Shown here: positions 32 to 5,643 of the stretch, piece after piece
Layout: each line of letters starts with the position of its first letter
Numbering within the stretch: position 1 is the first letter of the stretch
Program-made: the position numbers and the translations under genes
Notes under the pieces: generated by a model
Told to the model about the DNA's origin: nothing
What the model saw: only the letters and a program-made list of their open reading frames with translations
The model's database searches: none
IMG/VR virus record: IMGVR_UViG_3300007559_000293
Coordinates: 1-20,393 of that record
Reading direction: 5' to 3' (one strand)
Length of the DNA: 20,393 bases
From: a virus

Positions 32-391
32 TTACTGCGCCTTAAGAAGTTTTCGTATTGCTTTGATTTCTGCTTTGCTGAGGAAGTTATCCTCTTGCTC
101 TGCGTCTCGCTCTGCCCTCTCGGCTTTGCGTTTCGCCTTTTCCTCTGGTGTGATATCCTTCACCTTGGTTTTCACCTTCCATTTACCAGCCACCTTTTTT
201 GGTGCTTCGACTTCCGTGTCTTGTGTCAGGTAGTCGGTTTGCGGTGTGTCCTCAATTTCCACTAGCACATAAGTGCTGCCTTCAATCTCGCCACCAGTCC
301 AGCCATCGCCAAAGCTGGTTTGCGGATGGTTCTGCTGTGGATAGGATGGAAACTCTAAGATCGTGTCACCGTTTATTTTTGCGTATTGCAT
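32..391 (-). CDS. Small protein after the propeller gene, possible fibre assembly factor
   Basis: 119 aa, ATG 391 with GGAG 7 nt upstream, 2 nt after the propeller stop. The N-terminal half (MQYAKINGDTILEFPSYPQQ, then TYVLVEIEDTPQTDY) resembles short proteins found next to phage fibre genes that start with a K-Y-A-x-I-x-x-G-type strand. The C-terminal third (from about residue 75) is highly charged and helical (KRKAERAERDAEQEDNFL, KAEIKAIRKLLKAQ). It could be a fibre chaperone or a minor virion protein. Assignment is weak. Confidence 0.7.
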   Translation of the reverse strand: MQYAKINGDTILEFPSYPQQNHPQTSFGDGWTGGEIEGSTYVLVEIEDTPQTDYLTQDTEVEAPKKVAGKWKVKTKVKDITPEEKAKRKAERAERDAEQEDNFLSKAEIKAIRKLLKAQ

Positions 392-393
392 GA

Positions 394-1390
394 TTAACTC
401 CGAGTGAAGATGTGTACTTTATTTGATCCAGAACCGCTGCCAGTTGAGTAAACATTAGTGCCGTCTGCGGAAATGCAAATGCCAAAAGGTGTGTCTCCAG
501 CAGCAATAGTGCTTGTTCCGCTCAATGCTCCTGTGCCTACGTTCCTAGCAAAAATAGAGACTGTGGCACTAGCTTGATTTGTGCAGTAAACACTGACCCC
601 ATCCGGTGAAACGAGTATACCAGTAGGCCATGTACCAGTAGAAATTGTGCTTGTTCCAGACAACGCACCAGTACTAATGTTGCGATCAAAGATGGAAATG
701 GTGGCATTACCTTGGTTAGCTGTATAAACAGATTTTCCATCTGCGGAAATACAAATTTCCCAAGGGTTTGTACCAGTGGCAATCGTTCCACCAGATGTCA
801 ATGCCCCTGTGCTAACACTGCGAGTATAGATTTGGGCCGTGGCACCACCAAAATTAGCTGCGTAAACTGATGTCCCATCTGCGGAAATGCAAATGCCATA
901 AGGGTAAGATGCGGTAGCAATGGTGCTAGTACCGCTAAGTACCCCTGTACTTACATTTCTGCTAAAGATAGAGATTGTGGCTCCAACGTAATTAGCCGTG
1001 TATACTGATGTCCCATCTGCGGAAATACAGATATAATAAGGTCTATTTCCAGTAGCAATCGTTCCACCAGATGTTAAGGCCCCTGTGCTAACATTTCTAC
1101 TAAAGATAGAGATTGTGTTTGAATTGGAATTTGCTGTGTAAACTGATGTTCCGTCTGCGGAAATGCAAATATCCCAAGGGGTTGATCCAGTCTCAATAGT
1201 GCTTGTTCCAGATAACGCACCAGTGCTGGTGTTGCGATCAAAGATCCGAACATTACCATTATCGACTGCGTAGACTGACTTACCATCAGCGGAAATGCAA
1301 ACACCTTTTGGTGACGTACCAGAAGCAATGGTAGTACTTCCACTCAACGCACCAGTAAACACTCGGCCCCTACTCACACCCATGATTTTT
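394..1390 (-). repeat. Seven tandem 138-nt repeats (propeller blades)
   Basis: The codons for the I-S-A-D-G motif recur near 465, 603, 741, 879, 1017, 1155 and 1287. Most neighbours are 138 nt apart, and the DNA around TCTGCGGAAAT (plus strand) is nearly identical in six copies. The high identity suggests recent amplification or gene conversion and makes change of blade number by recombination possible. Confidence 0.8.
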
Positions 1391-1404
1391 CTATTAATAG
1401 GCAT
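394..1404 (-). CDS. Seven-bladed YVTN-type beta-propeller, probable tail-tip protein
   Basis: 336 aa from ATG 1404 (TAATG overlap with the fibre gene); the frame continues to 1455 without support. After an 8-14 residue leader the protein is seven repeats of about 46 residues. Each has CISADGxSVYxAN, then TISIFxRN and STGALSG-TSTIATG; the (I/V)-S-x-DG motif recurs near residues 37, 81, 127, 173, 219, 265 and 311. Seven is the closed-ring number for lactonase/YVTN propellers. There is no signal peptide, membrane segment or fused enzyme domain. Such propellers are known in surface proteins and in lactonases; here the fibre neighbours suggest a virion part, perhaps binding host glycans or proteins. 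An enzymatic role cannot be excluded. Confidence 0.85.
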   Translation of the reverse strand: MPINRKIMGVSRGRVFTGALSGSTTIASGTSPKGVCISADGKSVYAVDNGNVRIFDRNTSTGALSGTSTIETGSTPWDICISADGTSVYTANSNSNTISIFSRNVSTGALTSGGTIATGNRPYYICISADGTSVYTANYVGATISIFSRNVSTGVLSGTSTIATASYPYGICISADGTSVYAANFGGATAQIYTRSVSTGALTSGGTIATGTNPWEICISADGKSVYTANQGNATISIFDRNISTGALSGTSTISTGTWPTGILVSPDGVSVYCTNQASATVSIFARNVGTGALSGTSTIAAGDTPFGICISADGTNVYSTGSGSGSNKVHIFTRS

Positions 1405-2039
1405 TAGAAATTCTGGCCTCCAGTCATGGCGTACCAAGTTGTACCGCCATCCCATGTGGTCAGTACGAATATGTCAACCTTGTTATTGGTGCTGGTCAAA
1501 GTTGGTGCCGTACCGCCACTCCATTTTACTGCTGCTGGCCATGTGACTGCTCGAGCCGTTCCATCGCAAACGAATGCAAGTGTGATTCCGAAAGCGTTTC
1601 CTGTGGTCGGTATGTTGCTGATTGTCAATGTGGTTATCGCTGCGTTCAAACTTACATGAAACACATTTCCAAGGGCACAATTTAGCGTGAGCGTTCCTGT
1701 CGATATTGCTGGTGCGGTTTTAACTTCTATTAATCCAGTGATCGTTGGCGTGGTGAGTGCTGGGCTGGTGGCAAAAACATTTGCCCCTGTGCCAGTTTCA
1801 TCCGTGAGGCATGAGGCGAGATTTGCGCTGGATGGTGTAGCCAAGAAAGTGGCAACGCTTGTGCCAAGTCCGCTAACCCCTGACGATATAGGAAGTCCGG
1901 TGCAACTGGTGAGCGTACCGCTGGAAGGTGTGCCGAGAACAGGAGTCACCAAAGTTGGTGAGGTTAGCGAAAGCGTGTCACCGCTTTGAAGTTCTTGCAC
2001 CGTGGTCGTGTTTACTACTAACGGATATCGTGCTGCCAT
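1404..2039 (-). CDS. Tail fibre protein with GTPSSG repeats
   Basis: 211 aa, ATG 2039 with TAGGAG upstream. Residues about 27-95 contain the very common fibre repeat: SPTLVTPVLGTPSSGTLTSC, TGLPISSGVSGLGTSVATFL, DETGTGANVFATSPALTTPT. The same SPTLVTPxLGTPSSG segment occurs in the fibre gene at 2331-3185. The C-terminal domain (about 102-211) with AAITTLTISNIP, TARAVTWPAAVKWSGGTAPTL and WDGGTTWYAMTGGQNF is a known beta-rich fibre tip. It ends in TAATG with the beta-propeller gene, which suggests that both are made in step. Confidence 0.83.
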   Translation of the reverse strand: MAARYPLVVNTTTVQELQSGDTLSLTSPTLVTPVLGTPSSGTLTSCTGLPISSGVSGLGTSVATFLATPSSANLASCLTDETGTGANVFATSPALTTPTITGLIEVKTAPAISTGTLTLNCALGNVFHVSLNAAITTLTISNIPTTGNAFGITLAFVCDGTARAVTWPAAVKWSGGTAPTLTSTNNKVDIFVLTTWDGGTTWYAMTGGQNF

Positions 2040-2330: not shown

Positions 2331-3185
2331 TTAGAAAGTCCCGCCATCGATAATGATGCCGCTACCAAGACTGGTCGCTGATAAGACTACAGTGCCGTTG
2401 ATGTAGTAGCTCTTGGCTGATGCAATGTTGATATGATCGCTGCTTGTCCAGGCATCGGTTGCATCTACCCAGTTCCATGTGTGATCAGTTAAACCCTTCA
2501 AGGTTAGACCGCCACCATCTGCACCCGCATCGGTTGTGGATGCGCTAGCAAGAACAATGTTCTTATCACCCACTGCAAGGGTGGTACTAGATATCGTGGT
2601 CGTGGTGCCGTTCACGGTTAGGTCACCACTGAGAACCAAGCTAGTGCCAGTGGCTACTCCAATGTCAGGAGTGATAAGCGTAGGACTCGTATCAACTACG
2701 AACTTTGATCCGGTTCCGGTCTGGCTAGCAATTACAGTTGCATTGCCACTGCTTGTGATCACTCCGGTTAAGTTGGCATTGGTGGTCACTGTTGCTGCCG
2801 AGCCGGTGGTGTTCTGGTTCAGCGTAGGGAATGTGCAATTGGTTAGGTCACCGCTTGAAGGGGTGCCGAGTGCTGGTGTTACCAGCGTTGGTGAAGTGTT
2901 CATCACAAAGGTGGTGCCTGTGCCAGTCTGCGCTGCCACCGAGGTTGCGTTCCCTACTGATGTTATCGGGCCAGTGAGGTTGGCATTTGTGGTGGTTGTT
3001 ACTGCGAAGTCAGGGCCACCGATTGCAATTACGGATGTTGCCACCCCGAAGCTGTCATCACCTAGTCCGTAGTAAAGAATCCTCCCGCCTGCATTTTCAT
3101 TAAAGGCAAGTTCCGCTGCCCCGAGTGTCGAGGGTGCGCCAGTGGAGCCACCTATTCTGCGCTTAATTCTGATCGTGTTCGCCAT
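2331..3185 (-). CDS. Tail fibre protein with two-copy repeat and aquatic-phage C-terminal domain
   Basis: 284 aa, ATG 3185 after AAGGA. The N-terminus ANTIRIKRRIGGSTGAPSTLGAAELAFNE is a common virion-attachment sequence. Two repeats of about 39 residues (66-104 and 135-173, offset 69) share TNANLTGxITSxGNAT, QTGTG and a V-x-x-TSPTLxTP ending. The C-terminal part (186-284) has LTVNGTTTTISSTTLAVGDK, then ADGGGLTLKG, WNWVDATDAWTSSDH and YYINGTVVLS, a pattern known from structural proteins of marine phages. It ends IIDGGTF. A trimeric fibre is expected. Confidence 0.85.
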   Translation of the reverse strand: MANTIRIKRRIGGSTGAPSTLGAAELAFNENAGGRILYYGLGDDSFGVATSVIAIGGPDFAVTTTTNANLTGPITSVGNATSVAAQTGTGTTFVMNTSPTLVTPALGTPSSGDLTNCTFPTLNQNTTGSAATVTTNANLTGVITSSGNATVIASQTGTGSKFVVDTSPTLITPDIGVATGTSLVLSGDLTVNGTTTTISSTTLAVGDKNIVLASASTTDAGADGGGLTLKGLTDHTWNWVDATDAWTSSDHINIASAKSYYINGTVVLSATSLGSGIIIDGGTF

Positions 3186-3201: not shown

Positions 3202-3226
3202 TTAGAAGTTACCTTCAGAAATTACC
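3202..3226 (-). repeat. Near-tandem duplication at a fibre gene end
   Basis: Two 12-nt copies with the pattern GGTAA[T/C]TTCT[G/A]A lie one nt apart on the minus strand (3226-3215 and 3213-3202). The first encodes the final G-N-F-stop of the 79-residue fibre protein; the second would encode the same G-N-F-stop in a different frame and is untranslated. It looks like the scar of a recombination at the conserved fibre C-terminus. Confidence 0.55.
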
Positions 3227-3454
3227 ACCATCTAGTTTGTTGGTGTTGACCCACTGCGTTGATGCCGATGAATATTTTAAAAGGTCACCATCTGCCACCC
3301 CAGTAATGGTGGTATCGGTGAGTCCATCGAGTGTCGAAGAACCTGCAGCGCCCGCTGGCCCTGTCAACCCTCGGCCATCGTAGACGGTTACCAGCGTTTC
3401 GCCTTGTGCGACTGTGACGATGCCAGATTCTGTGACCACGACGATGTCTGGCAT
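3215..3454 (-). CDS. Short tail fibre protein with collagen-like motif and GGNF C-terminus
   Basis: 79 aa, ATG 3454 in TAATG. Residues 1-25 form a beta-rich head (DIVVVTESGIVTVAQGETLVTVY). GLTGPAGAAG (30-39) is a short collagen-like stretch, which in fibres marks a trimeric stalk. LDGLTDTTITGVADGDLLKYSSASTQWVN is a common phage fibre repeat, and the protein ends LDGGNF, like its neighbours. It may be a complete small fibre or a truncated remnant: a 12-nt near-copy of its last codons and stop lies just beyond the stop in another frame (3202-3213). Confidence 0.75.
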   Translation of the reverse strand: MPDIVVVTESGIVTVAQGETLVTVYDGRGLTGPAGAAGSSTLDGLTDTTITGVADGDLLKYSSASTQWVNTNKLDGGNF

Positions 3455-3873: not shown

Positions 3874-5643
3874 TTAGGGGGTTGCCGTTTGCGTTGTCGG
3901 ATCGGATCGCATTAGCGAGCCATTGGTATTGGTGTAAACATAGTAGGAGTTTGTTTTGTAAAATTCAGAGGTCGCTGGCGTTGGTTTTCTTGCGTCTGAG
4001 TAACCACTATAGAACAAGGTGATATCGCTACTTAGACCGCCAGAACTTAGATAATGCTCGTAGTAAATTTGGTTAGAAGAGTTCACTTTCCAGTTAAGTA
4101 GCGATGAATTAAGAAATCTTTTACCACTGGCAACCGTAGGCAATAGGCCTGCTGGCATCGATAATCTGCCTGGTATGTTGTAATAGTTCGCCACTGGCCC
4201 ATAGTAGGTGCTGCTTGCTGCGTCGTAGGTTAAGGTAACACTAAGTGTGCCTAGTGCAATATCATCGCCGGAAGGGATGCCTACGGTCGTGCGCTGGAAT
4301 ACTGCATCAATTAGGTAACAGGTGATGGTAGGCGGTATGGTTTGAGCGTATTGAATATCAAAGCTTAAAAGAGTTGGCGAGTAACTCGCTGGATAATTAG
4401 ATGAAAATGTTGCTGGACTCAATGCCGTGTTGTAGCTTGTCCATTCGTGCGGTGTTGCCTGCGAAAAGTCAAAGGCTGCATAGGAAGGCAAAGAAACTGG
4501 TGACTCATAAGAATAGTTCTCATTGCTGCGCCAAACACGATAATAGTAATCTAAATAATAAGTCCAAGAGGCAGCGCATACATCGGCACCAGAGCCAAGA
4601 ATATAATTTAAAAGCTGTGCTTGGTAGGTGCCGATGCCGTCAACTACACGGAACCAAAAAAATCTTCTGTTATTTGTTCGTGAAACGCCGCTGCATAAAA
4701 TAGGCGCATCATATTCATAGTGAACAAAGTAGTTGATGCCTGAATATATAGCTCCGTTGTAGGTGCTGACATAAGTTGCTGAAGGATCGAACAACCTTGC
4801 CACTACTGTTTCCGTTGGAAAAACTAATTCCACATGGTCAGGGAAAGTTTGCAAGTATTCAGTAGGTGGCGGACAGCAGTAGATATCTGCAACATCTGCT
4901 GCTGCCATCTCCACGCAAGCAATAGGTGCATAAATCTTATTGAAAAAATTCAAATTAAACTGTGTGTTTTCTGGTGGTATTATCGGATCAATTTCTGCTA
5001 CAGCATCCTCGTAAGACGAATACAGTATAATCGTTACCGGATTAAATTCGAGATGGTAAACATAGGCAAAGCTAATAACTTCAGTAATGCGAGAAACTGA
5101 AAATGTTCTCCCTCCGTTGCTTACTCCACTTGTCACACTCAATAGGAATGGCGTTCCGTAGTAAGTCTGATAGAGCAAGGTATACCTAACCCATGCTCCA
5201 GATTTAGCTGTGTATATATCGTTTTCCGCCTCATCTGTTTGGTTTTGGACTACTACTATATCGTTTAATGCGGTCATAATTCCGTCAACAACTTGGAGTC
5301 CGGTCAAAGAGATGTTTGCAGTTGTTGCAAGTTTTGCATTAGTTGGTATCCATCCCGGCGGAACATAAAAATATTGGTTGCCTTCAGGAAGATTTTTGAT
5401 TTTTAAAAAGTAAACTTCTTGCGGTACTAGGAAGCCTGCAACTGTTACATCGCAAACCGTTCTGATTATTCCGAGATCTACAAAATTTTTAGGAGATCGG
5501 CCTTCTCTTGATAGGCTTGTAGCAGTAATGCCAAAATTAAAGTCATCAAATCTAATTGCAAGCTCTCCGGTGTCTTGTCTTGTGTGTGTGACTAAGCCGA
5601 GCGAAGAATAAATGGGGTATTGGTCATCCCAGTAAATTTGCAT
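3874..5643 (-). CDS. Large Tyr-rich tail fibre/receptor-binding candidate
   Basis: 589 aa, ATG 5643 in TAATG. Residues 103-155 carry a known fibre motif: ATTANISLTGLQVVDGI, then IVVVQNQTDEAENDIYTAKSGAWVR. The rest is not recognisable. It is rich in Tyr, Ser and aromatic residues in beta-like stretches (for example YLDYYYRVWRSNENYSYES near residue 370), with several Cys pairs including IYCCPPP. The coding sequence looks clearly more A/T-rich than the head and tape measure genes, suggesting recent exchange, as is common for host-range proteins. No enzymatic motif is visible. It would sit at the tail tip; receptor binding is inferred. Confidence 0.8.
   Translation of the reverse strand: MQIYWDDQYPIYSSLGLVTHTRQDTGELAIRFDDFNFGITATSLSREGRSPKNFVDLGIIRTVCDVTVAGFLVPQEVYFLKIKNLPEGNQYFYVPPGWIPTNAKLATTANISLTGLQVVDGIMTALNDIVVVQNQTDEAENDIYTAKSGAWVRYTLLYQTYYGTPFLLSVTSGVSNGGRTFSVSRITEVISFAYVYHLEFNPVTIILYSSYEDAVAEIDPIIPPENTQFNLNFFNKIYAPIACVEMAAADVADIYCCPPPTEYLQTFPDHVELVFPTETVVARLFDPSATYVSTYNGAIYSGINYFVHYEYDAPILCSGVSRTNNRRFFWFRVVDGIGTYQAQLLNYILGSGADVCAASWTYYLDYYYRVWRSNENYSYESPVSLPSYAAFDFSQATPHEWTSYNTALSPATFSSNYPASYSPTLLSFDIQYAQTIPPTITCYLIDAVFQRTTVGIPSGDDIALGTLSVTLTYDAASSTYYGPVANYYNIPGRLSMPAGLLPTVASGKRFLNSSLLNWKVNSSNQIYYEHYLSSGGLSSDITLFYSGYSDARKPTPATSEFYKTNSYYVYTNTNGSLMRSDPTTQTATP

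Follow-up and report, generated by a model that had tools for sequence, protein, structure and literature searches.

Tip adhesins of the T2-type gp38 group (T2, PP01, S16) are joined to the fibre protein by a conserved N-terminal part. Their variable loops set the receptor and they undergo modular exchange; in a gp38 chimera, 113 residues were exchanged (PMC12892980). Beta-propeller domains were described in known or putative receptor-binding proteins of phi11, PRD1 (P2) and PhiKZ (gp131C), and the receptor-binding protein of phi11 combines a stem, a five-bladed platform and a tower in one chain (PMC4901313). Seven-bladed propellers are also found in phage tails as the nozzles of T7 (gp12) and SU10 (PMC6702177, PMC9509320). 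The Photorhabdus lectins PHL and PLL are seven-bladed repeat propellers that bind sugars between the blades (PMC5584973).

Here, we analyzed a stretch of 20,393 bases, the entire virus record, which is referred to as the window. It derives from an HK97-like tailed phage with packaging, head and tail genes on the minus strand. The gene content comprises terminase, portal, protease, capsid, connectors and tape measure, followed by a run of fibre genes. Within this run a propeller gene was found that is best read as an exchangeable receptor-binding tip (adhesin) on a constant anchor at the tail-fibre end, with a probability of roughly 0.7. The following features of the window were used.

394-1404, minus strand: YVTN-type seven-bladed beta-propeller tip protein, 336 aa (open reading frame, family matches, predicted strands, fold matches)
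1366-1404, minus strand: constant 13-residue leader MPINRKIMGVSRG, a candidate docking peptide and recombination joint (leader DNA identity across tip types, disordered in the model, single copy)
397-1347, minus strand: propeller body, residues 20 to 336 (model strands 20-335, seven repeats)
1417-1421, minus strand: GGAGG, likely ribosome-binding site (read from the sequence, kept in most relatives)
1404-2039, minus strand: fibre protein, 211 aa, C-terminus GGQNF (PHROG tail fiber matches, best E=1.8e-19; stands before the leader in all contigs found)
32-391, minus strand: conserved 119-aa gene (weak PHROG 4998 match)

The start of the tip gene and the end of the fibre gene overlap in TAATG, as the first-pass annotation had reported. 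At 12 nt ahead of the tip start codon, GGAGG still falls inside the terminal part of the fibre gene. The tip would thus be translationally coupled to the fibre gene via the overlap. Proteins on either side of the tip match PHROG tail fibre families. The 119-aa gene lies directly downstream of the YVTN tip and shows 79-93% amino acid identity in most relatives. Three successive proteins of the fibre run (3215-3454, 2331-3185 and 1404-2039, all minus strand) have similar C-termini, LDGGNF, IDGGTF and TGGQNF, which possibly represent a common end for docking or trimerisation. A 589-aa gene still further upstream (3874-5643, minus strand) is likewise swapped among otherwise close relatives. Its counterpart in contig L004 (5143-7227) is 76% identical, and that in L006 (5322-7244) gave no match. 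Judged by these comparisons, it is a second exchangeable tail gene.

The tip protein consists of seven repeats of 44-46 residues each. It matched the Pfam family Lactonase PF10282 with E=1.1e-36 (127.2 bits, cut-off 21.7) and the YVTN repeat TIGR02276 with 58.6 bits (cut-off 27.85). An AlphaFold2 model built with 14 homologues (pLDDT 88.9, pTM 0.88) contains 28 strands, corresponding to 7 x 4, and residues 1-12 are disordered. By the usual strand order of propellers, the first strand supplies the outer edge of the last blade, and therefore the predicted ring is closed. With scores above the curated cut-offs and a modelled closed ring of seven four-stranded blades, the protein belongs to the YVTN/Lactonase-type beta-propellers. 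A fold search with the model gave Z-scores of 37-40 to known seven-bladed propellers. The propellers of phi11 and PhiKZ were absent among the PDB matches listed, though they may still be kin in fold. By sequence, the best match among solved structures was 1l0q, an archaeal surface-layer protein. The complete seven-bladed propeller proposed in the first-pass annotation is thus supported far beyond chance.

The annotation had further described near-identical 46-residue blades with high DNA identity, and had suggested ongoing blade exchange as a route to altered host range. These points were not confirmed. Between blades of the window gene the mean identity is 62% for DNA and 59% for amino acids, with maxima of 73% and 78%, respectively. 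Exact internal repeats reach at most 23 nt, and ongoing exchange is not visible in this gene. The clear process is rather replacement of whole tips at the leader together with loop variation on one face. Signs of blade rearrangement were seen in relatives. Two blades of L134 are 100% identical and form a 195-nt exact repeat. A five-blade form (242 aa) is present in L115, L125 and L142, compared with seven blades in L114 and L128, and L142 matches L128 except that precisely two blades are missing, a 273-bp stretch between direct repeats of 121 nt. The five-blade form is either a real deletion or a collapse in short-read assembly, and a collapse could also apply to L134. Sequence comparison of L134, and of L142 with L128, suggests blade exchange or homogenisation in relatives only, not in the window gene.

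Scans of viral contigs revealed many tip homologues at the same gene position. Two kinds of protein follow the leader in relatives that share the fibre gene: a YVTN propeller, or a protein of six repeats that is unrelated to it and is named here after its repeat type (KAIFGYG...TNLVSNTGVV...TTGVGTAR..LAAAGYG). L017 and L022 carry this fibre gene and the leader MPINRKIMGVSRG ahead of a KAIFGYG tip. Apart from its tip, L022 is close to the window, with 88-98% amino acid identity in most tail and fibre genes. For the exchange scan, the 3' end of the fibre gene was used as the sole key. The next gene was leader plus tip in 40/40 contigs (29 YVTN, 11 KAIFGYG), several of which are near-copies of one virus. 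The tip type was mapped onto a tree built from the 3'-terminal 330 nt of the fibre gene. At least 10 changes were obtained, at least 5 of them forced by strongly supported branches, and the changes were no fewer than with shuffled labels.

The leader DNA was compared with that of the window. Identity was 39/39 in L004 and L016, 38/39 in L017 and 37/39 in L022; overall it was 36-39/39 in close kin of either tip type and 25-36/39 in remoter kin. Ahead of the leader, the fibre end shows about 80% identity; behind the leader, identity falls to 28-33% where the tip class differs. Synonymous divergence between the window and L004 is 0.4-0.6 in most neighbouring genes and 1.0 in the C-terminal half of the fibre gene. 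It peaks at 2.1 in the body of the tip and drops back to 0.4 in the gene downstream. The tip is among the most diverged cassette genes between close kin, and the 119-aa gene is the second border of the exchanged segment. At the level of sequence, these comparisons demonstrate frequent whole-tip exchange at the leader. The conservation of the leader DNA could instead reflect constraints on translation start. Switching by an invertible cassette was also considered and is unlikely, since the leader was found once per contig stretch and once in the window. As a sign of a diversity-generating system (DGR), reverse transcriptase was searched for; RVT_1 matched in 0/14 records, all possibly fragments.

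The alternative tip and the gene behind it are located in L017 as follows.

L017, 10001-10876: KAIFGYG tip, as an example (range L030-L109)
L017, 10880-11500: 206-aa gene, apparently rich in coiled coil, directly behind the KAIFGYG tip

The KAIFGYG repeat protein was found in at least 369 viral contigs. Six repeats were counted in 67 of 71 proteins, and the other four were probably missed by the search pattern. Elsewhere, KAIFGYG modules follow different short leaders or form fusions with longer N-terminal parts. The protein had no match in Pfam or PHROG, and the tip none among 50,697 phage records. A profile of the family matched the Photorhabdus lectins PHL and PLL with E=1.7e-10. As a control, a reversed-sequence profile of six members was used, which gave chance matches only, and the same six in forward orientation gave the lectins. 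Structure prediction of the KAIFGYG tip reached a pLDDT of 37.5, and a propeller fold is putative for this tip. Within the leader group, the 206-aa gene is about 90% identical or more after KAIFGYG tips and absent after YVTN tips; the 119-aa gene follows downstream of tip and 206-aa gene in these phages. Homologues of the 206-aa gene were detected at 43/80 KAIFGYG loci, some in phages without the leader MPINRKIMGVSRG. Its product is a candidate tip-specific chaperone, or a partner with a putative role in assembly. Taking both tip types together, we tentatively propose, at slightly under even odds, that the 39-nt leader acts both as recombination joint and as docking peptide. At this joint, the YVTN scaffold and an unrelated, also propeller-like one, the lectin-like KAIFGYG protein with its chaperone-like partner gene, would be traded with such frequency that the tip type became uncoupled from the fibre end.

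Variability was then assigned to the two faces of the propeller, with loops placed from predicted strands. In this model, the D-A and B-C loops of one face vary by 1.6-2.0 bits per site, compared with 0.4-0.65 on the opposite face. The leader is predicted to leave the propeller from the less variable face, opposite the D-A/B-C loops. In the near-identical pair L016/L144, 14 of 28 amino acid changes fall into these loops, which make up 17% of sites (p=5e-5), and dN/dS in the variable-face loops is 1.9. For other pairs dN/dS was below 1 where computable, yet highest in the same loops, and positive selection was seen in one close pair only. As a control, blades within cellular YVTN proteins were analyzed. 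These are biased to one face too, mostly more weakly. One-face variability therefore backs recognition without proving it, and its use as proof of receptor binding was downgraded.

Virion location, docking by the leader and receptor binding of the tip are what we infer from these data. The leader probably clips the seven-bladed propeller onto the end of the tail fibre. In the proposed mechanism, the 13 residues would dock the tip onto the fibre end, and the closed propeller would expose the variable loops on its other face, away from the leader. These loops may grip a surface ligand, probably a glycan. Exchange of whole tips would take place between the 39-nt leader, which hardly varies, and the conserved 119-aa gene at the far border; the incoming tip would be another YVTN propeller, or the unrelated lectin-like six-repeat tip with its own 206-aa partner gene. 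We favor receptor binding because a tip related to lectins by the Photorhabdus profile replaces the propeller at the same leader, and because propellers have precedent in receptor-binding proteins (PMC4901313). The receptor-binding tip suggested in the first-pass annotation thus remained the best reading, given the fixed place behind the fibre gene in dozens of contigs, the constant leader and the lectin-related replacement. Neither a catalytic signature nor a secretion signal was found in the protein.

The alternative that survives best, and which we regard as unlikely, is a structural component of the fibre end without a role in receptor recognition. It might be a cap, a ring that stabilizes the shaft, or a decoration binding environmental polysaccharide. 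The fixed place of the tip in the fibre run would fit such a part, and propellers are structural in the T7 and SU10 nozzles (PMC6702177, PMC9509320). A cap, however, is unlikely to be swapped so often for an unrelated, lectin-related module, and would not be expected among the cassette genes that differ most from one close relative to the next.

Much less probable is a host-derived lactonase or other enzyme, acting in metabolism or degrading a surface polymer. The top Pfam match is Lactonase and the fold matches include the 6-phosphogluconolactonases 1ri6 and 6nau, but the protein scored only 52.4 bits against the 6-phosphogluconolactonase equivalog NF008258 (cut-off 370). The whole protein has one His and two Glu, and the conserved Asp and Arg recur in every blade as structural positions. 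Based on sequence and predicted strands, the variable-face loops contain no conserved charged or His residue. The lactonase was rejected because the enzyme models scored far below their cut-offs and no conserved residues were seen in the pocket.

According to the first-pass annotation, close relatives that are clearly host metabolic enzymes would have argued against a tip. In phages, the nearest kin proved to be this very gene at the fibre end. Among cellular proteins, the nearest (44-52% identity) are predicted to lie at the surface of uncultured bacteria, Candidatus Yonathbacteria among them. Two of these proteins have prepilin-like N-termini, and in the uncultured bacterial assemblies L156 (7587-9002) and L158 (7515-8981) such an N-terminus is combined with YVTN blades close to those of the phage tip. 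This kinship would fit an accessory protein outside the virion, such as one that the infected cell displays or secretes, but this is very improbable, as MPINRKIMGVSRG contains no signal peptide or membrane segment, the tip overlaps the fibre gene at a constant place inside the tail-fibre run, and the leader is common to other tips. A match in a Flavipsychrobacter assembly turned out to be a phage contig in which leader and neighbours are the same. In the 274-kb viral contig L145, one protein joins a WTQ/WDY-like repeat N-terminal part, long PT-repeat linkers and a YVTN propeller. Among the 50,697 phage records, cultured phages gave only weak matches to the YVTN tip, with at most 29% identity.

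If the receptor-binding reading is true, the leader marks receptor-binding tips of uncultivated phages by sequence alone, and differing binding among closely related phages is explained. The analysis suggests that a plug-in tip could change the cell surface gripped by the virus. L022 and the window provide a natural swap pair, and a large unclassified family of lectin-like phage repeats comes into view.

Compared with described systems, the same kind of gene was already deposited as A0A6J5SZJ1 from an uncultured Caudovirales phage (COG3391), shown without function; it is 76% identical over the full length with a TM-score of 0.97 between models. No paper describing this tip was found among open-access papers. 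Like gp38, the tip is encoded by its own gene right after the fibre gene and has a constant N-terminus and a variable distal part. In contrast to gp38, whose loops are carried on a poly-glycine II sandwich, the tip is a predicted propeller, and its leader has 13 residues compared with the 113 exchanged in the gp38 chimera. No sequence relationship to gp38 was found. By analogy, the tip may work like a gp38-type adhesin, outside the gp38 family. The first-pass annotation had called propellers not a standard phage tail part, which is correct only in part, as T7, SU10, phi11, PRD1 and PhiKZ all have them. The nozzle proteins of T7 and SU10 form hexameric channels in short-tailed phages, carry inserted domains and are not located at the fibre end, and the 336-aa tip has no platform or nozzle segments. 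The likeness to PHL and PLL belongs to the KAIFGYG tip, not to the window protein, with six repeats compared with seven and a putative fold in the phage version. PhiKZ gp131C has seven blades, as does the window tip. The propellers of phi11, PRD1 and PhiKZ are domains of larger or differently built proteins, whereas the tip, a leader plus one propeller lacking the phi11-type architecture, has a gene to itself and is exchangeable at the leader joint. With phi11, PRD1 and PhiKZ, propellers were already known as parts of phage receptor-binding proteins, and the tip joins the known class of modular receptor-binding tips.
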